DNA of 64,000 nucleotides from Taxawa tesnikishii (nom. ined.). Lineage: Eukaryota > Ascomycota > Dothideomycetes > Dothideales. Each line of letters opens with the position of its first letter. Positions within the stretch are counted from its first letter, which is position 1. The notes beneath the pieces were generated by a model. That model searched no databases. It was not told the DNA's origin and saw nothing but the letters and a program-made list of their open reading frames with translations. Below are positions 30,162 through 45,994 of this stretch, one piece after another. The DNA lies in contig JAPDRO010000016.1 in assembly GCA_030247885.1 (NCBI GenBank), positions 310,001 to 374,000 on the forward strand, read 5' to 3'. Position numbers and translations under genes: made by a program.

Positions 30162-32071
30162 ATGCCCATTCTGAACGGCGACAGCATGGAGGGCAGCGTC
30201 CCCGTCCTCGAGAAGGCCAAGATCCTCGACTTTCACACGGCCGCTGAGGTCTTGCACAAGGAGTACCCCCAGCGCGACGGCATCGATGTCAGGACGCTGC
30301 TCGACTCCAAGATCAACGGAGGCCTCACCTACAACGACTTCCTCATCCTCCCCGGCTACATTGGTAGGCAGCTCCGAAAGCCCGGCGCATTGCTGCTTGC
30401 GGCTTGCTTACTCCCTCTACAGGCTTCCCAGCCAATGCCGTTCAGACCGACACCCCAATCACCAAGCGCATCACCCTCAAGACTCCCTTCGTCTCCTCTC
30501 CCATGGACACTGTCACTGAGCACAACATGGCTATTCACATGGCTCTTCTGGGCGGTCTGGGTGTCATCCACCATAATTGTTCCCCTGAGGATCAGGCCGA
30601 GATGGTCAGAAAGGTCAAGAGATACGAGAACGGTTTCATCCTGGACCCTGTCGTCATTGGACCAAACACCACCGTTGCCGAGGCTAGGGCGCTGAAGGAG
30701 AAGTGTGGATTCGGAGGCTTCCCGGTGACTGGTAAGCCAACTCCTCTCTTTGCACGCGCAGGCAGGGAGATTCTACTCTGAGGATGAATAAAAATCTAAA
30801 TAACTTTCGTTCATCCGCAACGAGCAATCGTGCTGTGGAGAAAGGTTGAAACTCTGAAACAGACGGAGATACACGCGCCGGCGCAGCATGCTCGCAATTG
30901 CACAGACTGACCGCTGCACAGAGGAGGGCAAGCTTCGCTCTAAGCTGATCGGTATCATCACCCCCGTGATGTTCAGTTCCACGACAACCCCAACGACCCG
31001 GTCACCAAGGCCATGTCCACCGACCTGGTCACCGCAAAGACCGGCATTGACCTCCTCGAGGCCAACTCCATCCTCCAGAAGTCAAAGAAGGGCAAGCTTC
31101 CCATCGTCGACGAAAACGGCAACCTCGTCTCCCTCCTGTCCCGCTCCGATCTGATGAAGAACGTAAACTACCCTCTGGCTTCCAAGCTTCCACACTCCAA
31201 GCAGCTGATCTCCGCTGCCGCCATCGGAACGCGTCCGGACGACAAGCGCCGTCTGCAGAAACTCGTCGATGCCGGCCTCGACATTGTCATTCTCGACTCC
31301 AGCCAGGGCAACTCCCTGTACCAGATCGAGATGGTCAAGTACATCAAGGAGACCTTCCCCAACCTCGACGTCATCGGTGGCAACGTCGTCACCCGCGAGC
31401 AAGCCGCGAACCTGATCGCTGCCGGTGTCGACGGTCTCCGTATCGGCATGGGTTCCGGCTCTGCCTGCATTACCCAGGAAGTCATGGCTGTCGGTCGTCC
31501 GCAGGCCGTTGCCGTTCGCAGCGTTGCTTCCTTTGCTGCTCGATTCGGTGTTCCTTGCATCGCCGACGGTGGTATCCAGAACGTCGGACACATCGTCAAG
31601 GGTCTTGCCATGGGGGCCTCTACCGTCATGATGGGAGGTCTCCTCGCCGGTACCACTGAGTCCCCAGGTCAGTACTACGTCAGCAACACCGGCCAGCTGG
31701 TCAAGGCCTACCGTGGTATGGGCTCCATCGACGCCATGGAGGACAAGAAGGCAGGCGTCGGCTCCACCAACCCCAGCGACCCCAAGGCCTCGAACGCCGG
31801 CACCGCCCGCTACTTCTCCGAGGGCGACAAGATGCTCGTCGCGCAGGGCGTCAGTGGTAGCGTGCTCGACCGCGGCAGCGTGACAAAGTTCGTTCCCTAC
31901 CTTATGGCCGGTGTCCAGCACAGTCTGCAGGACATTGGCTGCAAGAGCTTGACCGAGCTGAGACAGGGTGTCGTCGATGGCTCCGTCAGGTTCGAGCTCA
32001 GGACCGTCAGCGCCCAGGCCGAGGGCAACGTGCACGGCCTGCACAGCTTTGACAAGAAGCTGTACTCGTAG
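30162..32071 (+). CDS. Inosine-5'-monophosphate dehydrogenase
   Basis: NAD-dependent IMP to XMP oxidation, the committed step of GTP synthesis, and the target of mycophenolic acid. Exons 30162-30363, 30423-30731 and 30922-32071, introns 59 and 190 nt, about 553 residues. The N-terminal catalytic block is [16 protein letters not shown] and [20 protein letters not shown] pair is inserted between FILDPVVIG and [10 protein letters not shown]. Then come [10 protein letters not shown], the catalytic cysteine loop [28 protein letters not shown] and the flap [11 protein letters not shown]. The C run at 30961-30965 is one base short (IGIITP should run into [13 protein letters not shown]). The codon use is strongly biased, as in highly expressed genes. 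Confidence 0.95.
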
Positions 32072-32239
32072 GTGACCCGTCCTCGCGTGGGCCGGTCATG
32101 GTCTGTAGAGGATGATGGCGTTCACGGTTCGAAAAAGAAACAAAAGTCACGAATGGAGTGTTTCATGCGAAAGCACCTATAGGCGTTTGAGGAAGAAGGG
32201 GTCTGGAGAATGGGGAAACGGCTGTCTCGTCTATGTCTT

Positions 32240-32370
32240 TACGAAATATCAACTCTATACTTAACTTCGCATCTCCTTCTACTTTGGGCGTTGACGTGCA
32301 CATTGTTCTTTGTTTTTGGAAGGTAGACGTTGCCAAGTACACGAAGGGGTATCTTTGTGCATGAAAGAAG
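32240..32370 (+). repeat. Direct repeat R1 downstream of the zinc gene
   Basis: About 110 bp sharing roughly four bases in five with 34310-34420 in the same orientation. Shared core: GGGCGTTGA then GTGCACATTGTT and GGAAGGTAGA. The weaker similarity may extend to about 32600. R1 lies 3' of the zinc gene; its mate lies 5' of it. Confidence 0.75.
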
Positions 32371-32651
32371 CGACCGCCATTGTCTCACAGCAACGCTGTG
32401 GAGGTGGTATAGCCATGTCCAGATCTCACAGATATCTGTAGAGATGTGACGACTACGAATCTCACCACTACTGGTAGACACGGTAAATCTCACTGCGAAG
32501 GGCGGACTCATGATCGCACCATTGCTGGCGGATCTAGAAACAAGAGAGAAGCGAAGAAGAACGCAACAAGAAAACCACCATCTCTCTCCATCCACCACGA
32601 CCCTCATCACTCCAAAGTCTTATTTACACTTTGGGAAGCTCAGGACAAGCC

Positions 32652-34132
32652 TTACCCGGCAATGGCTCTCTGCACATATTCTGCGTCATACGTTAGCTGA
32701 AGTCTGTATGCGACTGCTACTTCACTCACCAGGAAGTCTGCGATGTTCCTCATCTTCTGCCTGGGCAGCTCCTCCTCATCAGCCCAGTTATCCGCGATCT
32801 TGAGGCGTTTCATGGCGTATCGGACGTTGTCATACCCGAAGGCCGTCTCCCACTCCAAGAGGAATTCGAGTGTCGGCGTCATCTTCTGGACGGAGGGCTT
32901 TGACGATGGCTCGACCGGAGGTTCTGATTGAGGTGGCACAGCCGTCACCATCGCAGCGTTCTCTTCTCTCTTCTTCCCTCCTTGGCTCTCCTTCCCTCTG
33001 GTTTCGACAGCCGCAGCTGCTTCCCGCTCACGCTGTGCTGCCATCTCGTCGATCATGCGTTGCACTCCCGGCAGACGCCTCTTGTTGTAGCCTTCCGGCC
33101 ACTTTCCTGACTTCTTTCCATACTTCCTTTGCTTCTCCAATCTGTATGTTTCTTCATCTTCCCTCAGCCACCTGTCAAGGTCCCAAGGATTGGACAATCT
33201 AATCTCGAAATCTAGTGGGACGGTGAATCCGTCTCTGAGGCGTTCGCTTGGGATCGAAACCTCATCTGTACCCTTGCCAGGAAACCTGGAAGGATGGTCG
33301 TCAGTCACATGGAAACGTGAAGATACTTCTCTGTCAGAACAAACTTACCGCAAGAACTGGGGGATTATTCCCATCGTGTAGAGCATCTCTAATTGCCATT
33401 TGTGCAAGTAGTGGCACTTGCCATCAGCAATGGGACACGGTTCTGACAGCCAGTTCTTGCATGGCACGTCGGTGCACATGTCCTTCTCATCCTGGCCCGT
33501 TAAGTCGTGGATGGTGATCTCGTATTGGCAGTTGCCGCAAGGGGTCTCGTGGTTGCAAACCAGGTGGGACCAGATGCAACGGACGCAGCGTAGATACCAA
33601 CGCTGGTTTTCGTGCTTCCTTCTTCTTGCATTTGCCTGATCGCGGAGGATTTGGGCGGTCTGTTGTGTTTCCCAGTCAGCCATGCCGCGGATGTGGCCTC
33701 CTCCGGTGACCGCAGGAATGGTTCGTGGCGCCGGCTCGACTGCCGCTCGTGCGTAAGAGCCGCCCAAGACAGCAACCGACGCGAGCGCAGGGAAACCCGG
33801 CATGGGTGTTGTTGTCGGCGCGGTTTGGGTTGTCATTGGTTGTGGCAGTGGTTGTGATTGTTGCGTCTGACCCGAAGCTCCCGAATTCTAGCATCTGGTT
33901 AGCACAGTACAGGCAGAGGCGGACTGGAAAAGCTTACAGCGTTGAGCTCCGTTATGGATCTAAGAGTTCTGCGCTGTAACGGCGCCCGACCGTGCTGCTG
34001 CGATGGCAGCGCATTCGGTGCTGGTTGTGGCGGGTTCTGGTATTGCTGCTGTTGCAGCTGCATAGCTTGTAGTTGTTGATTTAATTGTGCTAACTGCCTG
34101 CGGAGGCTATCCATATCTGGCAGTTCTGCCAT
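32652..34132 (-). CDS. Composite zinc-binding protein, copy A (Zn2Cys6-like plus CCCH)
   Basis: 455 residues in exons 33938-34132, 33349-33887 and 32652-33285 (introns 50 and 63 nt), no frame breaks. It starts MAELPDMDSLRRQLAQLNQQ, a coiled coil rich in Gln. Then comes a compact cysteine region: CVRCIWSHLVCNHETPCGNC (C-x2-C-x6-C-x5-C-x2-C, like half of a fungal Zn2Cys6 cluster), an x17 spacer, then CTDVPC and a CCCH-type finger CKNWLSEPCPIADGKCHYLH. A C-terminal helical part follows (LEFLLEWETAFGYDNVRYAM). I do not recognise the family. A paralogue lies on the other strand at 41566-43160. Nucleic-acid binding is a guess from the fingers. The last codons overlap a donor-like GGTAAGG, so another exon is possible. 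Confidence 0.8.
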
Positions 34133-34280
34133 GTTGGTAGAATTGGTTGTGAATTGGAATGATTTGGGAAGAGACGTGTGGAGAGACACGAACTCTTCAC
34201 CTACCGCCCGCTACAGACACGAATTCTTCACCTGACGTGAAGAGAGACGCAGGTTCTTCACCTACCGCCTGCTACGCTGT
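34133..34280 (-). promoter_or_regulatory. Conserved 5' leader of copy A
   Basis: Read on the minus strand it contains GTAGCAGGCGGTAGGTGAAG and CGTCTCTTCCCAAA just before the ATG. Copy B carries the same elements in the same order at 41485-41540. GGTGAAGA occurs three times here. It is either a shared regulatory region or recent common descent. Confidence 0.6.
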
Positions 34281-34309
34281 CTTGTTTATGCCTTTGTGAA
34301 AGGTCAAAT

Positions 34310-34420
34310 CCATACTTATCTCCATATCTACTTCTACTTCTACTCTGGGCGTTGAAGTGCACATTGTTTTTGTTTCTGGAAGGTAGATGTTACTAAATAC
34401 ATGAAAGGGTATCTGCCTAT
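34310..34420 (+). repeat. Direct repeat R2 upstream of the zinc gene
   Basis: Mate of the repeat near 32250-32370, same orientation, about 2.05 kb apart, so the pair brackets copy A. Confidence 0.75.
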
Positions 34421-34599
34421 TGAAACAAAAGGCGATGTGGTATATACGGCGCGAAGACTTGCAAGAGGTAAGCTTTACTCCGATTTTTCCGGATACGGAG
34501 GGGCACGAGTGCCTCAAAGAGAAACAAAGAAAGGGGAAAAAAAGCAAGACGCCAACTAACAAAGGAACCCACTTCCTCAAATCCTGACAGATAGAGCTG

Positions 34600-34830
34600 G
34601 CATTACAACGCTACATACTTAGTATGCTACACGCTACATTACATAGATATCATATATAGTACTACTATATGCCTTCTAATTTCTATGTAGTATATAGTAT
34701 ATGTAGTACCGAGTTTGTACTCTTCTTATATACTATTCGAAGTGCCTTGTTATGCTAAATACCGTAGTATAGCCCACATAGCGGATATAGTGGGTAGTTG
34801 AACTGTTATAGTAAATTCAAAATTTAGCTA
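34600..34830. other. AT-rich, TA-dinucleotide-rich island
   Basis: About 230 bp dominated by TATA, TAGTA and CATA words, quite unlike the GC-rich surroundings. It could be an old repeat mutated by RIP or a lost gene copy. No coding signal. Confidence 0.7.
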
Positions 34831-35247
34831 TAGTTGATCAGCTTCGGAGGTGCTAGAGCCGTAGCGATCTACTGGTCCGACCAGATAAGATATCGGTAAG
34901 ATAAGATTTAGACCTGATAAAGACCTCCAGGTAATAACATGGCTCTTGTGCAACATCTTGAAGCATCCCATACAACAATGTGCTCCCGATCCAGCTACCT
35001 TCCCAGACATGTCTTCGGATGATCCGTTCAGATTCCCAGCAAGCTCTTCCCTCCCCAAATGTACCTCGAGCATCGATGCAGACTTCATGTGAGACAGAAG
35101 CAGCAAAAAAGAGACAAGAAAAACTCAGAGGCCAAATTCGGGAAAGTGACAGACGATATACGTCATGTTCTGAGGTTCTAGCGCGTCGACCGTGAAGTCT
35201 GGTTCGCGGACAGAGAGGTCGAGGGTCGACAAGCGGGAGGACAGAAT
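34831..35247. other. Intergenic, no gene seen
   Basis: Contains a 92-codon minus-strand open frame (34828-35106) without recognisable features. It otherwise holds the 3' flank of the next gene. Confidence 0.4.
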
Positions 35248-38025
35248 TCAGATCTTCTCAGGCCAACTTCTCTCACATGTGAACTCATCAGCTGCATAAT
35301 ACCAGATGGTGTTACTGCTCGACTGGAGGAGAACCGCGAACCGTTCGTCCCTCTTCACAGTACGATCAGTGTTGTCGACCTCACATAATGCCTCCGTTGG
35401 TTCTGCATTGTAGGAGGTGAACAGATTGTCAGTGGTGGGCGTGGAAAGGATACGCTCCAACCAATGCACGTAACAGTGGACCAGAGCGATGGAACCCTCG
35501 GTGTCACGCTGGTCTTTCCATTTTTGAAGCACATTCCATACCATGGACCGTGGAAATCCAGGTGCCGTGCGAAGAAGTGCTTCGAGAGATCTGACAACGA
35601 CCAGGTTATGCAGCACTCGGTCTGTCGTTTGTTGCATGTGTCCAGATGCGAACACGTCCGCTGCTCTATAGAGGTCACGAACCGGACGTGACCGAATGTC
35701 AAAGGTTTGGCGACCGACACCGCAAACGATCAGCTCCAGGAGTTCCAGGCTGGTTTTGTCATTGTACGGTGCGCACAAAGAGTGCAGCAGAACCTGGCGA
35801 CTTAGAGCCCCGACATCGCGTCCGTATCGGACTTCTGCCGTTGTCACGTCGAGGAGACGTACATTCCAATTGAAAGCTTGTGGGTTTATCGGATCTTGAA
35901 GTGGTTCGTCGAGGACAAGGTCCCACATCGCAACGAGTATACTGTCAGCGGCGGCACCCTCGTCCTGCATGTTGTGATTCTGCAAAACCAGAATGGAGTC
36001 CAGGAGTTCGCGTATGTCTTCGTCACGTTGGACTGTTGCGGCTTTGGCAGCAGTCATCTGCGCGGCCATGTCGGCGAGCTTCTGGTCTTTCTCGGACGCC
36101 GAAGATGCGTGTTTTGAGGTTTCTTGGTTCAAGACGTTCGTGTAAATCTCCATCACATTCCACAAGGCGCCCTTTGTCTCGTCTGCCTGTCTGCGGGCTT
36201 CCTCGCACAATCGTTCTTTCTCTGCCTCCAAGTTGGCAAGATTAATCAGCTTCTCGTCAAGCTCGGCGTTGAGCGCTGGTATGACGTCGTCTCGGTATCT
36301 TGTGAGGTCCTCGATCGAGGCTTCCTGTTCTTCGAGTCTCTTCCTGTCCGCATCGAGATCTGATCTCAACTGTGCTTCGAGGGCTTTTTGTGTCTTTGCG
36401 TTGTCTTCGAGCTCCTTGACACGTTCTCTGAGCCATCTGACTGTGTTTTCGCGGTTTGCGGCTTCGGTTTGCTTGGCGACGAGTTGACCGCGCAGGTCCT
36501 CGAGACGTTGGTCGATGGTGTTGTTCATCTGCGCTTGCAGGTCTTGGTACTTCTGCATGGCCTGCTCTGATTCTCTCCGCGACGTTGCCAGTTTCTGTTG
36601 CAAGTCCAGGATCTCGCGCTCTTTGTCATCTTGCATGGACATCTGAGGCCGCGTTAGCCGTCTTCCCAGTATTGTGAAAGGCAGTCAGTCGGACAGATTG
36701 CCCCGACGCATAGTAGTTAGAATCTTACCTCTTGTACTTTATGTAATGCTTCCAGTTCCGTGAGCTTGTTGTCCTTTTCTGTGGACAAAGCATCCAGGTT
36801 TTCCTTCCACGCTTGATGCTGCTGCTCGATCTGGTTGCGGAATACCTGCGCTTGCTCTTCCCTCTTGCGCTCGGATTCTGCAAGTTTTTTCCTCAACTCG
36901 GTATCCACTGATTGCTGAGAGCTCTTCACAATTGTGAGGGTTTGCACAACGCCTTCCAGCTCGGCCTGTTTTTCGGCCAGCCGATCGGATTGTTCTTTGC
37001 AGAGACCATGGAGCTCTTTGACTCGGTGATACAGTTCGAGCAAGGTCCACTCTTCAGTCGTGGCGGTGCCTGGTAGAAATCAGTATGCAGTTGACAACAC
37101 ATAGCCCGCCGCCCTCAACAACGACAGACGCCCCTCGACCCGGTCGGCAACCCATGAGAGCACCGGCATTAAACTCTGTTTTGTTGGGCTGCTGGGCGCG
37201 AACGTACCATTCATGACAGTTTGCATATCTTCTTTTGATCGAGATCTGTCCGGCTTGAGTGTCTCAGGTATGATCGTTTGCACGCCACCGCTCGTGCCCA
37301 TGAGCTCGGATCGGTTGTAGAACTGCACCGTAGACACCAGAAACACGCGACACAACCGTCTTGTATTGGCCATTGTTTCTCGATTGCGACTACCGGTGGA
37401 AAACTTGTGAAATTGGTTTTCGATACCTGGCAGAATCAGCACAAACTGCCATCAAGACACACAACTCTGGGCAGAAAAGAAATATGCGCCGGTGTTTCGG
37501 TACAGGCAGTGCGGCGGGTGGGAGACCCTTCGAAGAGGCGGCCCGTAGAGAGTGGTTACTCGAGCCATTCGTCGACCGGACGCCTCGGACAACTGCCGCC
37601 AGTTCTCGCAAGCAGCCAGCCGTCCACCGAACGGCCTGTTAGGGGCACCGGAGTCTGATCATGTTTTGCGAAGCAGTACGTACGGTCTTGCAGGCGCTGT
37701 GCATGCGTCCTCCACGTATCGACATCCTTGGCCACGTGTTTCACGACAGGCTGTTGTTCGTTTTCAGTCCGCAATTGCTCGCGCGCTGAATTTTCATTTT
37801 TGATGAAAGCATCGGATCTCATATCCGGGTTTGATTTCCGGAAATCGTCTCTGTACCAGAATCAGCACCACTCCTCCTTTCGACAATGGGATATGGACGT
37901 TACTCTATGTCTTTGGCGCTGACGAGCGACGCCCTTGACTGTATCATGCGCAAGATCTGATTTGTGACTAGACCGTTGTTTTCGGCTTTCCGCAACTCGG
38001 CGGAATACTGGTCTATAGAGGCCAT
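35248..38025 (-). CDS. Unknown coiled-coil protein
   Basis: 747 residues in five exons: 37904-38025, 37850-37684, 37426-37208, 37069-36729 and 36642-35248, with all phases consistent and no frame breaks. It starts MASIDQYSAELRKAENNG. Residues from about 190 to 480 form a long coiled coil rich in Glu, Lys, Gln and Arg (VRWLRERVKELEDNAKTQ, LRSDLDADRKRLEEQEA). The last 250 residues look globular and mostly helical (QVLLHSLCAPYNDKTSLELL, ending NTIWYYAADEFTCERSWPE). No domain recognised. It is divergent from the next gene with only 234 bp between start codons. The 257-nt third-exon intron is long for this window. Confidence 0.75.
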
Positions 38026-38259
38026 GGCGGGATTGATCTTGACGGAGAGAGTTTTAGAAAGAAATAAGGAGTGGGAAGAGATACGACCGCTTTCGCTCGC
38101 ACCCTGAAGCGAGCCACGCGAGCCACGCGAGTCTGATGCGGCTATCGCGTCTCGGCAAGATCGCGTGCCAGATCAGGAAAGCGCGCGTACGCCTAAATGC
38201 CGTCCCTTACGCTTCCAAGTCCGCTCAGCGAACGAACACACAAGCACACTACAGCAAAC
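38026..38259. promoter_or_regulatory. Compact divergent promoter between the two coiled-coil genes
   Basis: 234 bp between two start codons. It contains a 9-bp tandem repeat (GCGAGCCAC) at about 38109-38131, within this shared promoter. Confidence 0.55.
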
Positions 38260-39757
38260 ATGGCACAAAACACTCGTGTCATTCATCACATGGGCTACAC
38301 CCCGACAGGTGGTGATATGGGCGGTGAGATAATCCCGTCGGTAAAAAACAGGTCGGTGTCTCCAAGGATTGGGCAGTCAGTGCCTCGACTGACGGGTTTG
38401 CAAGATCCAACAATCCAGAAAGAAGAGATGTCCTCATGGACATAAGGCAACAATGGATGCAAGAAGCATACAACGAAAGCTTGGACGACTTCATGGTCGA
38501 GATGCACCAAGCCGAATGCGCGCACGCAATAAGATGGGTACAATCTCGACTGCTCGGGACGCGTGAATGGGGGTTCATGCGCGTGCTCTCCTAGCCCAGC
38601 TGCTACCGGAGGTTGTGTCGGCAATACTCGATAACACCCTTCCCGAGAAATGGGTGAAGAATGAGAACAATTTCAGAAGCAAAGTCCGAGCGACATACGT
38701 TCCAACAACACCGGGTCCAGACTTGGACGCTGGGCACTATGTCAACTACCTCGCCAAGGAGGATGGAACAGGACTCACCGTGAAAGAATACAACACATTC
38801 ATCTGCGGCATGGATTGGGCCTGCAAGACAATCATGGGAGTGGGCAACCTTGCCCGAAGAAACCAAGACGTAGCACAAAAGATGCAGGCGTTCGCGGACG
38901 GCATAACCGCGGAATACGCACAACTCACCAATGGTCGAAACATTTCCGAGTTGGTGACGGACAGTTCCCGCAAGAATCTCGAGCAGTTCGTCCAAGTCAA
39001 CAGAAATCGAGTTCTGTACTGGGCAAAGCTTCGCAACACGCACATCATGCTCCCCGGGAGGTCGGTGAGAGCAAAAACGTGAGAGAGTGTTGCAAAGAGC
39101 ACCAGCAAACGGGTGAAGGTTCTCCAAAGATCTTCCGCCTGGCTCAGTGCGTGTTGCACTATCTTGGAATGGAGTGGAAGTGCAAGTTCCAGATGTTCGC
39201 GTTCCGGATCTTCAAAAGTCTCAAACCGGAACACGCATCCATCGGAGAATCACTGCTGAGCCAGATGTGTGCGTCGTACGCGAGTTACGGTGGCTTCAAC
39301 TTTGTCCAGGCCGGCATCTCCGTCGCGGCCGTGGAGGAGATGACAGTGGACGAGTGGTACACCACATGCGACCAGGCCCGCGCCGAAGGCATCGTGGACG
39401 TTATGTCGGCAAACATCTCCGAGATAGAGAAGATGTACAAAGACAGGATTGCGAAAGCCAAGGTAAGCTGACATACCGCGATGGTGATTGTTGCGTGAGC
39501 ATGCATTAACGATCGCTCAGGAAGGCATCAGGCTAAACCAGTTGAACAAAGAAGTCCAGGAGGCCAGAGCCGAGACCAAGAGGTTGGAGGAGGACCTCGT
39601 TCGCAAAGTCGACCTATTCGAAAAGCAAAGCGAGAAAGTCATGCAGTCGGCGTTGAAGCTGAAAGAAGCCAAGACCCAGCGAGACGCTGAAGACGAAGAA
39701 GTGTGCTCGCTCTTGGAAAACTTCCTCGCAGAACTGGAAAAGCTACCGGACGAATAG
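38260..39757 (+). CDS. Unknown protein with C-terminal coiled coil
   Basis: About 480 residues. It starts MAQNTRVIHHMGYTPTGG. The central part reads VLMDIRQQWMQEAYNESLDD, LLPEVVSAILDNTLPEKWVK, NYLAKEDGTGLTVKEYNTF and YLGMEWKCKFQMFAFRIFKS. A coiled coil (LNKEVQEARAETKRLEEDL) ends the protein at FLAELEKLPDE. An intron at 39463-39520 is clear. Reading it through needs three one-base corrections, at an A run (38345-38350), a G run (38570-38574) and a C/G run (39052-39058). No domain recognised. It is paired head-to-head with the 747-residue coiled-coil gene, so co-expression is plausible. Confidence 0.65.
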
Positions 39758-39892
39758 CTTCGGTACAGCACACAAGCATCGACACAACCGGCAGCCCTTG
39801 AGCGTACAGCATTTCGACTTTACTTGATCAGTTGGAAGACTCGTCGGAGCAGGACGTAGGAGTGCAGGAAGTGTCGCATTTTGTCTTTCGTC

Positions 39893-39960
39893 TTTTTGCT
39901 GTCACCTTTTTGCTGTCGCCTTTTTGCTGTCGCCTTTTTGCTGTCGCCTTTTTGCTGTCG
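39893..39960 (+). repeat. 14-bp tandem repeat (TTTTTGCTGTCGCC)x5
   Basis: Five copies in a row, the first with a single change, in the 3' flank of the preceding gene. Confidence 0.95.
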
Positions 39961-41484
39961 TTTCAAATGAGGCTTTCTTGAAAGGATCCTCTTAGGTTAC
40001 CTATCAAAAGGTGCTTGCGAGTGTACACCGTCCGCCGCGACGAGTGCATCACCGCCGTCAGGGTACCATATAGGGTCTTTCTCTTTCCATTCCGTTGACG
40101 ATCATGAGATGGCTGAGCTACGGGCTACCTGTTATTCAGAGTACTCCGCTGCGTTTGCCGTTTGGCTGTCTACAACAGTAGATGTGATGTTTTTCTCTTT
40201 AAATATGCAGAGGTGGCTGTACGGTGACAATTCGGTCTGTCAAATAGGAGCATGAATAAATGGATGTTTACGTTCTGTTCGATCGTCAGTACACCACTAC
40301 ACTAGCAGAGTTTCGTGAGGCAGGTGATAGGAAAGGGGTGAACGATAAGCTACGCCTCAACAGCTGAGCCCGAACGGTAGAATGTGTTGTGCGCCTGTCT
40401 TCAAGCATATACTGTGCCGCTTTGTCGAGGGGACATACGGCTGTGGGAAAGCAGGGCTAGTGGTGTAGGGTGCCAGACAGCGGGACAGAACTTGGCAGAC
40501 AGTAGGTCTCACTCTCGACCGAATATATCCACAACAAACGGTCTGAACGGTTGTAGATTGGTATCAATTGGGAGACAAGAGTTTCTATGCTCGAGAATGA
40601 TGTAAATTGGTATGGTATCGCATCCCAGGACCGAGGAAACATGGGAAAACGAAAGGCCTTTGTCCGTCGACTTCTGGCACCGTGTCTGGGCAAGCTTGTT
40701 CCAACTTCAACCCAGACAACGTGCCGCAAGAACACATCAAATGGGACACTGTCTGGGTGTTCGTACGCCTCTACGCCCTCCTCGACACTGCCAACAGTAG
40801 ACTTTTGTGGTGGTGAGAGTTCTGTCTCTTGAAAGAGTAGGATGTTTGATAAAGGACGGTACATCTGTTTGCTATATAACCAGGTGAAGAGTGGTGTATT
40901 GAAGAGCTTGTTGTGGACGAGATCACGACCCGATTGGCCTTTGAAAACGACAAGAGGTAGTTCTCCAAGGCGCAGGTAAAGACTTTCTTTCCAATCGTGA
41001 CTGGAAGAATGGTTAACGGCGGATCAGATCTATAGCCAAATGAGAACGAGCGACGCGTTTATCGGCGTTTTGATGACGGGCATTCAGGACGAGTGCTCGG
41101 TTCGTTCGGGCATAAACGCGTAGTTGTAAGAGACAAAGGAGATCCACGAGCAAACTGACTCAGTCTGGTCTGCAATAATTGAGTCAAGGTTAGGGATAGA
41201 AGAAACAAGGACCAAAGAAAGCTTCCATGAGGCCCAACTTACACGGTGGGGAGACAGGGAGTTCGCAGGAGCTTTTATAGTCAAAGAACGGTCTGGGAAA
41301 TGTTCAATGGTTGCGTTGACCTCAAGAGACGATCAAGGAAAGTCCTTAAAACGGGTCGCCAGTAGTAAGATCCTTTCGCTGTTCTCTTCGCTTTGCCTGC
41401 ATTGGTCAAGCACATCATACATACTGTACGACTAAGAGCATGCCTTCTTAAGTGATCGGCATTGCTTCGGCCTTGGCAGCCACG
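39961..41484. other. Intergenic, no gene supported
   Basis: Upstream DNA of zinc copy B. Open frames up to 135 codons (40457-40864, minus) have no features. A clean direct or inverted duplication with the region around copy A is not visible beyond the leader at 41485-41565. Confidence 0.4.
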
Positions 41485-41565
41485 TGTAGCAGGCAGTAGG
41501 TGAAGAACTCGTCTCTCTTCACCCGCGTCTCTTCCCAAACCATTCTTTTCAAAAACCATATCAAG

Positions 41566-43160
41566 ATGGCACAACAACCATTGGATATGGACGCCTTTTA
41601 AGGCATCTAGCACAAATAGATCAAAACCTGCAAGCCCTGGAGCGGCCCTCGCAGCCGAATCGCAATCCACCGCAATCTAGGCCAGACGTGTCGCAATCGC
41701 AGCAACGCGGTCAGCCACAAGCAGAAATCGAAGAGCTCCCAGACTTCCGGCCGCGTGCTCAGGCTAGAACTGCAAGTCTATCCATTTCATCTTTGTTGGT
41801 GTCAGACTGACCAAATGCCAGGTTCGAAACTATACACAAACAAGGTCGCAACTCGCAACCCAACCAGCAACACCTGGACTGAGCTCACTCGAGTTTCCGT
41901 CCACCACAACAGCAACAACAACACAAGGTATGTTTGCGTTTCCATCTGAGTGGCAGGGTCCTTCGAGCAGCACTTACACGTTTACAGGAACGGCACGCTG
42001 GGACGCATACAGCAACGCCACGCATGTGGCTGCGCAGAGCGGCCCTTCAAGTAGCTCATACGCTCACAGGGCGGTCGCGCCTCCGCCGATCATTAATACT
42101 GCCATCAGTAGGGAGGTCAAGTTTCCGACACGCCTGACCGCCTGACGCGGCAACAGGCTGAAATCCAGTTCTCCCTATCAAGAAAGATGAGGCATGACAA
42201 TGAGAAGCGCGGATGGTGGCTGCGTTGCGTGCGCTGCGTCTACCTCCGCCACTGGGATTGCAATCACGAATCTCCATGCGGGAGATGTCAAGAAAAAATA
42301 ACCCTGCACGGGCTGACAGGCCAGCAAAGGGACAGCATGTGCACATACGTGGTGTGTTCGAAGTACTTCAATGCCAAGTCCTGCCCATTGGGAAAAGGCA
42401 AATGTCACTACTTGCACAAATGGCAACTAGAAGAACTCATAAAGAGTGGAAAAGTCTTTGAGTTGTTCGAGTAAGTTCATCCAAGCAGGAACACCATTTG
42501 TGCTTTCCATCTTTCATGTAACTGATGGGCTTGTGTTCAGGTTGCCCGCAGTGAAAATCCTCGCCACACACATCCCAGTACTCCCAGAGGAGGAGTGGAG
42601 AAGACGACATAGAGCCATGGGCGGTTCAGTTATTTCAACCCTGGGTCTGGAACAAGATGTCCCAGCTGGACCGAGGATACCTGATCGACGAGCAGTTCGT
42701 CAAATGGTGCAAGCCTCCTACCAATAAGATGTCAGAAAGTCACAATCGGCCAATGACGCGAGAGGCCGACGTCCAGATGCGCGAGCAGAGGACGCAAAGC
42801 CAAAACGAGGCCGACAAGGCCGCGGAAGCAGCCGCTGCTGCCACAATCCCACCGAAAGGAAAGCAAAAGGCGGCAGCACCCCGTCCAAGAGCGAGCTTTT
42901 CATACAAGAATACAAGGGCGTCTATGGCCTCGCCGCCATCCTGGACGCCATGGACTTACTCAATATCAAGACCGGCTGGTCTGAAGAAGACTCGTCGATA
43001 GACGACTTGTCTGACAAGGACATAGTGAAGCTTGGGTGGTACCTGGTAAGTACAGCGGCCGTGACTGCGTACGAATCACAACTGACATGTAATACAGAGG
43101 GATTGGGTTGACCCGTTGGAAGGCAAGACTCGTCCAGAGTCTCCTGAGCCTGAGGAGTAG
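41566..43160 (+). CDS. Composite zinc-binding protein, copy B (several frame breaks)
   Basis: Paralogue of the gene at 32652-34132. Start MAQQPLDMDAF matches MAELPDMDS of copy A, and HLAQIDQNLQAL matches QLAQLNQQLQAM. The cysteine region is CVRCVYLRHWDCNHESPCGRC, then CTYVVC and the CCCH part ending KSCPLGKGKCHYLHKW, with the same spacing as copy A. The C-terminal block FIQEYKGVYGLAAILDAMDL matches copy A. Introns near 41776-41821, 42473-42540 and about 43046-43098 are likely. At least four single-base breaks are needed: a T run at 41596-41599, near 42124-42130, near 42595 and a C run near 42878. It is either a decaying copy or the same base-loss errors seen elsewhere; the exact protein is uncertain. 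Confidence 0.6.
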
Positions 43161-43217
43161 ACAAGGAGGAGTTTGCGGGAGGGAGGATTGGGTAAGGGAG
43201 CGCTGGAGATGTGGTGG

Positions 43218-43340
43218 TTGTTCTTGTTCTTGTTTCCGTTCCTGTTCTTGTTTCTGTCCTTGTTCTTGTTTTTGTTCTTCTTCGTGTTCTTTCCTTGTTC
43301 TTGTTTCTGTTCTTCCTCATGTTCTTTTCTTATTCATGTT
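43218..43340 (+). repeat. TTCTTG-rich pyrimidine repeat
   Basis: About 120 bp of imperfect TTCTTG/TTCTTGTTTC units, just 3' of copy B. Confidence 0.85.
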
Positions 43341-43705: not shown

Positions 43706-45994
43706 CTATACACCATTTACGTCCGCCATCGGCACATCTCCCCCATCCTCCCTCCGCGTCTCGAATGCCACCGTGATGATGGCTACCTTCCTCCCAACGG
43801 CGAAGACCAAACTCCTCCCCTCGGCATCCCAACTCAAGCTAGGCTCGTTTGGCGGCGGCTCCTCTCCATCGACCATCTCTTCATCATTGCCCCACTGCGC
43901 ACTCGCCGCCCGCCACCTCATCACCAACACGCATCCCAACCCTTCTCCATGGCCCGCGAATTCATCGGGTGGGTTAGTGTTCATGTCCCAAACCTTAACG
44001 CTCTTGTCGCTGCTCACGGCGAGGTACGTGCCGTCGGGGCTCCAAGCAAGCGCGAACGCCTCTTCCCTATCCATTTCTAGGGTTTGGATTTGATCCGAAA
44101 AACATCTCTCGTTGTTCACAGGATAGACGCAAGCGGCGCCCGTGGAGTAGGCGACGGCAAGGCGGGACGGTTCGTTGGTTGTAGATGCGGAAGGTGTGGG
44201 TTTGAAAGCGATGGCGTTGATTCCATTGTGCTCTGGATCCGAGACCAGGAAGTCCGGGAGTGGTCGTAAGGAATCGGATGTCCGAGTGAAGACGGCTATG
44301 ACTCTTTCCTGTTGTTGTGCGAGGACAGCAACGAGCGGGTGAGATGAGTCGTACCGAATCTTGTCCCAGTTTTTGTCGGTCGGATGAGATAGTCGTGGGA
44401 TCAGGTTGCGAATACCGTTGGATGCGATTGTGTCTTCTGCTGCATCATCTACGCCGGATACTGAGAGGTCCAAGTCGTGGAACTCGATGCGGTTGTTGCC
44501 GCATATGACGAAGGACGTTTCCGTCACCCAGACTGCGTCGTACACCGGCGAGTCAAAGATTCTGAATGCAAAGGGAGTGGAGTGTCCGGTACTGTGAGGA
44601 GTCAGTGCACGCATTGCAGATGGGCTGCGCCGGACAAGGTCAAGGATGCTCTGACAGTCCTCTGCTCGTTGCTTGACGGCCCTAATCTCCCCTGAGAGTT
44701 TGGCCGTAGAGAGTGCAATAGCGTGGCAGAGAAAGGCAAACAGAACGGGGTAGAGCAGGCGACTGCAGGCGAACAAGGAGAATCGAAAAGAGTAGCTCAC
44801 CTGCTCCTTACATCCCAGACCTCGACAAACCCCTCCTAAGGTCAGCCGACACGCTCACGCTGAGAAGATACTTCCCAGATGAATCGTATCGAAGTGCCAT
44901 GATCATGCCACCGGGCTTTAAGAGATACGGGTGAAGGTCGTAGAACCGTTTCACGCCCTTCCCGTACCAGTCGAACATGCGGTGCGTGGGTTCGCGACTC
45001 CCGTTGATTTGGCGGGGCATCTGCAGCGCGCAGGTGACGTACCGACCGGTAGGATGCCAGCACGCCGCGCTCACCACGGTGTTGTCGGGGAGGATCTTTT
45101 CCGCATCATCGTGGGTAACCTGCACCACCTTGTCAGTTGCACGATGGTTTGATGGTCTGGTGAAGGAGACAAGGGGACGAGGAAATGAGTCAGATGCTCA
45201 CATCTTGACCGCCACTCTGCTCCGATGTGGGCACGTTGTAGAAGCGGCATATCGACTCACCGACAGTGAGCAGTGCAGGTGTCATTGCGGGTTGCGGATT
45301 CCACGCTGCGTTGAATATCGCGCTTTCCGGCTGTTCCATTGTCCAGTACATGGTTTTGGTTTTGGGCTTGGCTTTCTTCTCCGTCTGCGTACCGGAAGAC
45401 GCGGTTTCGATCCTGGGCGCATCTTCCACCTGTGCCGTCTCGACTTCGGACTGTCCGGGCTCAGTTTCGGCCTGCGCTGTGCTTTCCGCGTCGTCTTGGA
45501 CCTTGTCAACGTCCATTGCATCGCCGTTGACCTGAGCTCCGTCGCCATGACTCCTCCTTGCACGCTTGGCGGCGGGTGTAGGGAAATCGTCGTTGTCTGC
45601 AGCCTGTGCTATGCTGGCTCTGCTTCGCGCGGGTGCCTGGTTGTTGGTGATCTGCGTAGAGGCGCGTCTGTCCACGTTGGCGTCCAACACATGGTAGCGC
45701 TTGACTTGGCTTGTGACGGAGGACGTTAGGCGATCGTGATACAAGCCGTCTTGGATTATGTTGACGAGATCGTGCTGTCTGACTTGCGGCGCGAAAGGCA
45801 GGCTTTCGGGGTCGCGGTACTCAATCGGACGGTGCCAGTCATTGTACAAGGCCTTTGCAGCGTTCTCATGGCCGGCTTCCTGCAAGTAGCGTACTGCGCG
45901 AGATGTCAGTGTCACAAAGACTGTTGTTGTCGGCTAGCTCGGGACACATACAGACGAGGTAGTTGATATGATCGGAACCGAGAGCCTCTCCCAT
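43706..45994 (-). CDS. LisH-WD40 protein (TBL1/Sif2-like)
   Basis: About 649 residues in four exons: 45952-45994, 45202-45893, 44801-45128 and 43706-44591. The N-terminus carries a LisH motif (GSDHINYLVLRYLQEAGHEN). An acidic, low-complexity region with a basic KRARRS stretch follows, then WD40 repeats (SAIFNAAWNPQPAMTPALL, VSAACWHPTGRYVTCAL, AFALAWSPDGTYLAVSS then KSVKVWDMNTNP). LisH-WD40 proteins of the TBL1/Sif2 type sit in histone-deacetylase complexes such as SET3; assignment here rests on architecture. One base is missing at the run 44830-44833, after which GFVEVWDVRSR reads correctly. The intron at 44592-44800 is 209 nt. Confidence 0.8.

Follow-up and report, generated by a model that had tools for sequence, protein, structure and literature searches.

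The window analysed here is a stretch of 64,000 nucleotides from the ascomycete Taxawa tesnikishii (contig JAPDRO010000016.1, hereafter C8, positions 310001-374000; the genome comprises 29.37 Mb on 34 contigs). It contains a four-gene island with a G+C content somewhat below that of its surroundings, flanked by a gene for IMPDH (exon 30944-32068) and a WD40 gene (43709-44854 scanned). Two outward-facing copies of a zinc-finger gene, ZF-A (32624..34132, minus strand) and ZF-B (41566..43160, plus strand), mark the ends of the island, and two genes with coiled-coil character, C (35248..38025, minus) and D (38260..39756, plus), stand head to head between them. Positions refer to the window unless preceded by the name of a contig or locus. 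From the sequence alone, an initial annotation had read this arrangement as a symmetric unit of four genes with two working zinc-finger copies. Our findings now show that the ZF, C and D families recur as a unit on a second contig, C14, in the same order and orientation.

All three families reappear at one unlinked place, C14:574.6-582.9 kb, within a span of 8.3 kb. Read in the direction of the window, the order there is C(-) D(+) ZF(+), which corresponds to C(-) D(+) ZF-B(+) in the island on C8. The C relative (C14:581208-582440) was found genome-wide with 29% identity (E 9.6e-26) in a match whose upstream edge contains one TGA, and the reverse search with the C14 protein recovered the window gene at 28% (E 1.1e-24); another match of the C14 protein, on contig C31 (E 0.07), was taken as chance. 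The D relative (C14:578641-579510) is 43-49% identical to the D pieces used as genome-wide queries and 46% identical in the reverse direction. Beside themselves, the D pieces have a single relative in the genome, the one at C14, and the same holds for C when searched from both sides. A six-frame search of the genome with the cysteine module of ZF-A returned three matches: ZF-A itself, ZF-B, and C14:575213-575410 (29% identity, E 1.0e-5), which lies in the open reading frame (ORF) C14:574604-575575. By our own arithmetic, co-location of three families by chance in a genome of this size has a probability of the order of 1e-7. The flanks differ, being IMPDH and WD40 genes in the window and thiolase, DAO, MFS and complex I 30 kDa genes at C14. 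When the window ORFs between 30 and 46 kb were compared with C14:566-602 kb at E<=0.01, there remained, beyond the three families and antisense frames, only three rows at E 0.008-0.009, which we took as chance.

That three unrelated orphan families stay together in one order and one orientation at each of two unlinked loci, with protein identities down to 28-29%, makes it likely that they work together, and this adjacency is the strongest argument for a shared function. We therefore favour, with moderate confidence, a scenario whereby an old C-D-ZF cassette is present as two unlinked paralogues, one of them the island; the window ZF would have been duplicated later, and ZF-A would be a zinc-binding partner of C and D. 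Fungal genomes hold many orphan genes without a functional handle, and ZF, C and D would offer a concrete gene set for functional or binding work.

How might the apparent symmetry have arisen? We envision an ancestral cassette in which C and D stood head to head and ZF lay beside D, in the direction of D, and of which copies came to lie at two unlinked places. In the window, as judged from similarity, an inverted duplicate of ZF would then have arisen beyond C; the copy in the ancestral place, ZF-B, would have decayed while ZF-A stayed open. Pairwise identities are 34/62 for ZF-A and ZF-B, 19/61 for ZF-A and the C14 copy, and 17/60 for ZF-B and the C14 copy; in a shuffle test the ZF-A/C14 pair scored 85, where 300 shuffles reached at most 5, and the ZF-B/C14 pair 55 against 30. 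ZF-A and ZF-B also share upstream DNA, namely an element at 34170..34215 (minus) that forms an inverted repeat, at 80% identity, with its partner at 41485..41530 (plus) ahead of ZF-B, and in promoter words this pair alone stands clearly above shuffles. Because the two window copies are nearer to each other than to the C14 copy and share this upstream DNA, their duplication probably postdates the separation of the two islands. When the shared upstream stretch was searched against the DNA of the whole genome, ZF-A and ZF-B alone were returned, a result that leaves uniqueness unproven, as it missed a weaker known copy at 32221. That copy, downstream of ZF-A (32221..32354, plus), matches 34276-34414 upstream of the gene at 78-90% in three pieces, and the direct repeat is probably the trace of a further local duplication. 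Since the C14 ZF adjoins D, an ancestral order C-D-ZF followed by inverted duplication of ZF is the simplest history. The symmetric layout does not hold up as a meaningful unit, in that the paralogous island contains one recognisable ZF, beside D; the symmetry is best read as a later inverted ZF duplication, after which the copy next to D decayed. A corollary is that a neat symmetric layout can reflect duplication and decay rather than design.

ZF-A looks intact. It reads openly through three GT-AG introns (exons 34132-33938, 33887-33349, 33285-32730 and 32680-32624) into a protein of 448 amino acids with a Q-rich N-terminus. An alternative reading has two introns and 455 amino acids; the three-intron model is preferred because the third intron lies at the same place in ZF-B and the peptides behind it are alike (7/13 identical). 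The end given by the initial annotation thus moves from 32652 to 32624. The second working copy that it had proposed is, in contrast, broken: within 1.6 kb, the frame of ZF-B is lost near 41.6, 42.1 and 42.9 kb, and a frame change near 42.6 kb, for which the script inserted an intron absent from ZF-A, is a probable fourth break. Script events at ZF-A residues 73 and 244 correspond to the first and second introns and are excluded from this count. ZF-B has kept its module and its second and third introns, whereas its first intron seemingly has a GC donor (by eye). The start peptide said to be shared is present in ZF-B but stays in frame for about ten codons only. For the shared C-terminal helical block the case is weak: pairwise BLAST gives 34.3 bits, partly over translated intron, and a genome-wide search with the ZF-A block did not recover ZF-B at E<=1, its match on contig C19 (E 0.26) being taken as chance. 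Against C14, this block gave E 0.20 in one comparison and no match in another; an NPWD-like stretch behind the module is common to ZF-A and the C14 copy (25% over 44 residues, E 0.002).

Decay appears to have reached D as well. The window gene looks broken: its frame is clearly interrupted once, within a run of G, and again near 39.06-39.10 kb, where the interruption is possibly a short intron. Conceivably, ZF-B and D are intact and their frame breaks are assembly errors, a reading that the run of G and the possible intron would suit; yet the three to four breaks in ZF-B argue against it, as do two in-frame stops at aligned positions in the D gene of C14, where one more stop lies inside an insertion that is possibly an intron. 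A general assembly error is further disfavoured because IMPDH and Sec6 of the same window are unbroken (residues 8-374 of the 375-amino-acid IMPDH ORF align to solved IMPDH, and the 815-amino-acid Sec6 ORF spans all 537 profile positions). We consider assembly errors a very improbable source of these breaks.

Alternatively, the cassette might be a selfish element or one engaged in conflict, whether through mobility, drive or self-recognition, that spreads to new sites and degenerates once it has lost its use; unlinked sites with different flanks, repeated local duplication, and decay of ZF-B and of D at both loci would fit this. Pfam scans of 6 and then 7 pieces of ZF, C and D yielded no domain above cut-off, transposase-like or other; several coiled-coil models below cut-off were taken as chance. 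The repeats around the window island consist of ZF-A and ZF-B, their upstream DNA and short arrays, target-site duplications not having been searched for. There are two copies only, and the main exon of C has remained open in the window (35248-36684, 478 amino acids) and at C14 (549 amino acids), although the two are 29% identical. A selfish origin therefore seems improbable to us. We would give similarly little weight to a broader possibility, that ZF, C and D form an undescribed three-gene system that is copied or relocated as a block; here ZF would recognise nucleic acid, C and D would carry out the response, and copies would decay when no longer needed; if true, such a system could serve self-recognition, genome defence or drive.

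Returning to the paralogous cassette that we favour, we turn to the cysteine module of ZF. Two outward-facing, homologous modules exist, as had been claimed, and they lie in the middle of the protein, where they had been placed (ZF-A, 33402..33587, minus; ZF-B, 42226..42417, plus, with the frame still open). In the genome-wide search, the ZF-B match extended over query residues 12-100 with 54% identity (E 2.8e-30); in the alignment of the two, 49/99 gap-free columns are identical, among them 9/9 cysteine columns (P ~0.001 given that identity), and 8/9 cysteines are invariant across ZF-A, ZF-B and the C14 copy. Over 87 codons, dN is 0.35 and dS is 2.25 (near saturation), indicating that purifying selection acted on the module over much of its history. 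The cysteine gaps are 2,6,5,2,17,4,7,6 in ZF-A and 2,7,5,2,17,4,8,6 in ZF-B, both ending in C-x3-H. Hence, the spacing C-x2-C-x6-C-x5-C-x2-C initially given for the first part of both window copies is found in ZF-A, and also at C14, whereas in ZF-B the second gap is 7, not 6; a sixth cysteine follows at a distance of 17-18 in all three copies. The C-x4-C pair and the CCCH finger that had been listed one after the other are both present, and they have one cysteine in common. In ZF-A, the first cysteine of the finger stands 4 behind the sixth of the cluster. We read the module as ten ligands, each used once: six cysteines would form a Zn2Cys6-like cluster whose last loop is long (gaps 2,6,5,2,17 in ZF-A), and C, C, C and H a CCCH finger. 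The finger follows the pattern C-x(7-8)-C-x(5-6)-C-x3-H, with gaps 7,6,3 in ZF-A and 8,6,3 in ZF-B.

In Zn2Cys6 clusters, the cysteines are spaced C-x2-C-x6-C-x5..-C-x2-C-x6..-C, and the six of them bridge two zinc ions. The first five cysteines of ZF-A and C14 fit this spacing, as in members of Zn_clus (PF00172), whereas ZF differs from that family in its last gap of 17-18 and in a score below threshold. Against the curated cut-off of 21 bits, Zn_clus reached 11.2 bits on the whole of ZF-A (E 0.43) and 15.8 bits on a short piece with the ZF-A cluster (E 0.016), covering profile positions 3-24 of 39 only. The finger resembles those of PF21457 (zf-CCCH_2-like_3, Nab2-type) and PF00642 (zf-CCCH) in having C-x7/8-C-x6-C-x3-H, and differs from their members in that it stays below threshold and the ZF-B piece alone was matched (PF21457, E 0.009, 16.1 bits, cut-off 27; PF00642, E 0.18, 12.2 bits, cut-off 20.5; PF18044, zf-CCCH_4, E 0.61, also below its curated cut-off). 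Matches were thus confined to 2/7 module pieces scanned, each for one half of the module in one copy, and none was obtained for the three whole modules, the ZF-A finger piece or the ZF-B cluster piece. The claim of a composite of Zn2Cys6-like and CCCH-like parts outside any Pfam family is borne out at this level. Alternatively, the five- or six-cysteine part might be another zinc fold that resembles Zn2Cys6 through chance spacing. The partial, sub-threshold Zn_clus match, its absence from the ZF-B and C14 pieces and the long last gap would all allow this, but the five-cysteine spacing shared by ZF-A and C14 (one gap longer by one in ZF-B) and the sixth cysteine 17-18 further on in all three copies speak for the cluster, and we hold a different fold to be possible but doubtful.

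That no named family has this order of zinc parts stands as far as Pfam cut-offs go, but it needs qualification, because a survey already lists composites of a Zn cluster and a CCCH-type finger as a fungal class and counts composites of Zn cluster and finger as transcription factors (PMC5415576). Its C2H2 examples are Cmr1p/Pig1p, and the Aspergillus nidulans examples have two C2H2 fingers ahead of one Zn cluster, at the N-terminus with one exception (PMC5415576). Like this dual-specificity class, ZF has a Zn2Cys6-like cluster close to another type of zinc finger in one protein, and its family, too, undergoes duplication and loss of one type of finger, as seemingly at C14; unlike the A. nidulans proteins described there, it has the cluster first and the CCCH finger second, in mid-protein, both below Pfam thresholds. 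Members of the dual-specificity class bind DNA, regulate genes and carry in one protein two recognised DNA-binding domains that differ in class, and the two parts of ZF are both sub-threshold and each matched in one copy only. We therefore file the composite as a variant of a known fungal class, not as a proven member. No description of the cassette or module was found among the matches listed in a literature search of titles and abstract openings, and the cassette and the degenerate mid-protein composite look new.

What could ZF-A do? It would hold three zinc ions, two in the Zn2Cys6-like cluster and one in the CCCH finger, and the ligand pattern suggests binding of DNA or RNA through these parts. 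Partners might be met via the Q-rich N-terminus and the C-terminal helices, and the linkage is consistent with a role in one pathway or complex together with C and D. We infer from this a nucleic-acid-binding regulator that acts with C and D.

A more specific proposal is that ZF is a cluster-specific transcription factor driving a shared C/D promoter, like pathway-specific Zn2Cys6 regulators. It draws on the position of ZF next to a head-to-head gene pair at both loci, on the Zn_clus-like part, and on the transcription factor status of composites of Zn cluster and finger in the survey (PMC5415576). The C/D interval (38026..38259) measures 234 bp between likely first codons, 254 bp at C14, with the D start backed by alignment and the C start tentative. 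The 10-mer TCTCTTCCCA occurs in the window C/D promoter and upstream of both ZF-A and ZF-B, a count that shuffles also reach. CGG/CCG counts, in turn, fall short of the mean of shuffled sequences in the C/D promoters of both loci (7 vs 8.8 and 8 vs 9.5) and upstream of ZF-B (6 vs 7.7), are about equal to it upstream of ZF-A (8 vs 7.5), and clearly exceed it in one place, ahead of the C14 ZF (18 vs 13.5). Between them, the C/D promoters have 4 8-mers in common, against a shuffled mean of 6.25, and the Pfam scan found no fungal_trans domain. Direct control of C and D by ZF thus appears unlikely.

Several observations weigh against the cassette as we envision it, with ZF-A as its zinc-binding member. 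At neither locus does the C/D promoter stand out by a shared word or by enrichment in CGG, the module reaches the threshold of no Pfam family, and its last cluster gap of 17 is longer than is usual in Zn2Cys6 clusters. The structure prediction asked for by the initial annotation was run for the module and is poor (mean pLDDT 56.7); it contains no metals and carries no information on zinc sites. At C14, where the ZF frame is open through the cluster, the last CCCH ligands lie outside it, with C-x3-H in a neighbouring frame (by eye), and the script found one break only, upstream of the module. Searched against the whole genome, the N-terminal piece of C matches C14 with no better than E 0.027 (compared directly, at 30% identity along 63 residues), and window C ends about 90 residues short of its C14 relative, so that it may itself be cut short.

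Gene C combines a coiled-coil part (by eye) with a mainly helical C-terminal domain; upstream of its main exon lie three exons with approximate bounds, at 36717-37079, at 37080-37451 and a first one from 38025, the first codon being tentative. Gene D has a conserved central domain and a coiled-coil-like tail (by eye). The search for solved structures took in the module, the C domain and the N-terminal piece of D, and left out the D tail, the N-terminal part of C and the C-terminal block of ZF-A; no relative by sequence was accepted for any piece searched. Fibrinogen, the sole match of the module profile (E 0.75), was rejected, as was a CheC-like protein for the C domain (E 0.066), whose own structure prediction (mean pLDDT 42.1) was too poor for a fold search. 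Two TPR-repeat entries matched the D piece (E 0.00045 and 0.0016) and were dismissed, since their score adds up a single query stretch matched to four near-identical repeats; taken alone, the best of these matches has an i-Evalue of 9.4. Among viral contigs of IMG/VR, pattern matching followed by comparison gave no relatives of the ZF module (0 from 22 pattern matches) or the C domain (0 from 40), and among the bacteria and archaea of GTDB none of the ZF module (0 from 124), results without bearing on other fungi. For the D piece, one IMG/VR locus, L023, emerged from 3 pattern matches. It resembles a tailed-phage contig (by eye), and the similarity, of 29 residues (L023:5001-5087), is put down to chance because its ORF runs antisense to a longer phage frame.

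Both islands carry short repeats. In the window, tandem arrays with units of 14 and about 18 bp lie directly behind D (39872-39969) and ZF-B (43198-43326), and at C14 arrays of 40 and 43 bp lie behind ZF and behind D (L013:339-546 and L013:4074-4262). The N-terminal part of the C14 ZF gene (L013:1630-2011) contains three tandem copies of a unit of 126-151 bp, which are 72% and 86% identical to the reference copy over 57 bp and look like a repeated exon plus intron (by eye). The MFS gene beside the C14 island (L014:3796-5099, C14:585.8-587.1 kb) is split over two overlapping frames, being either broken or read with a missed intron.

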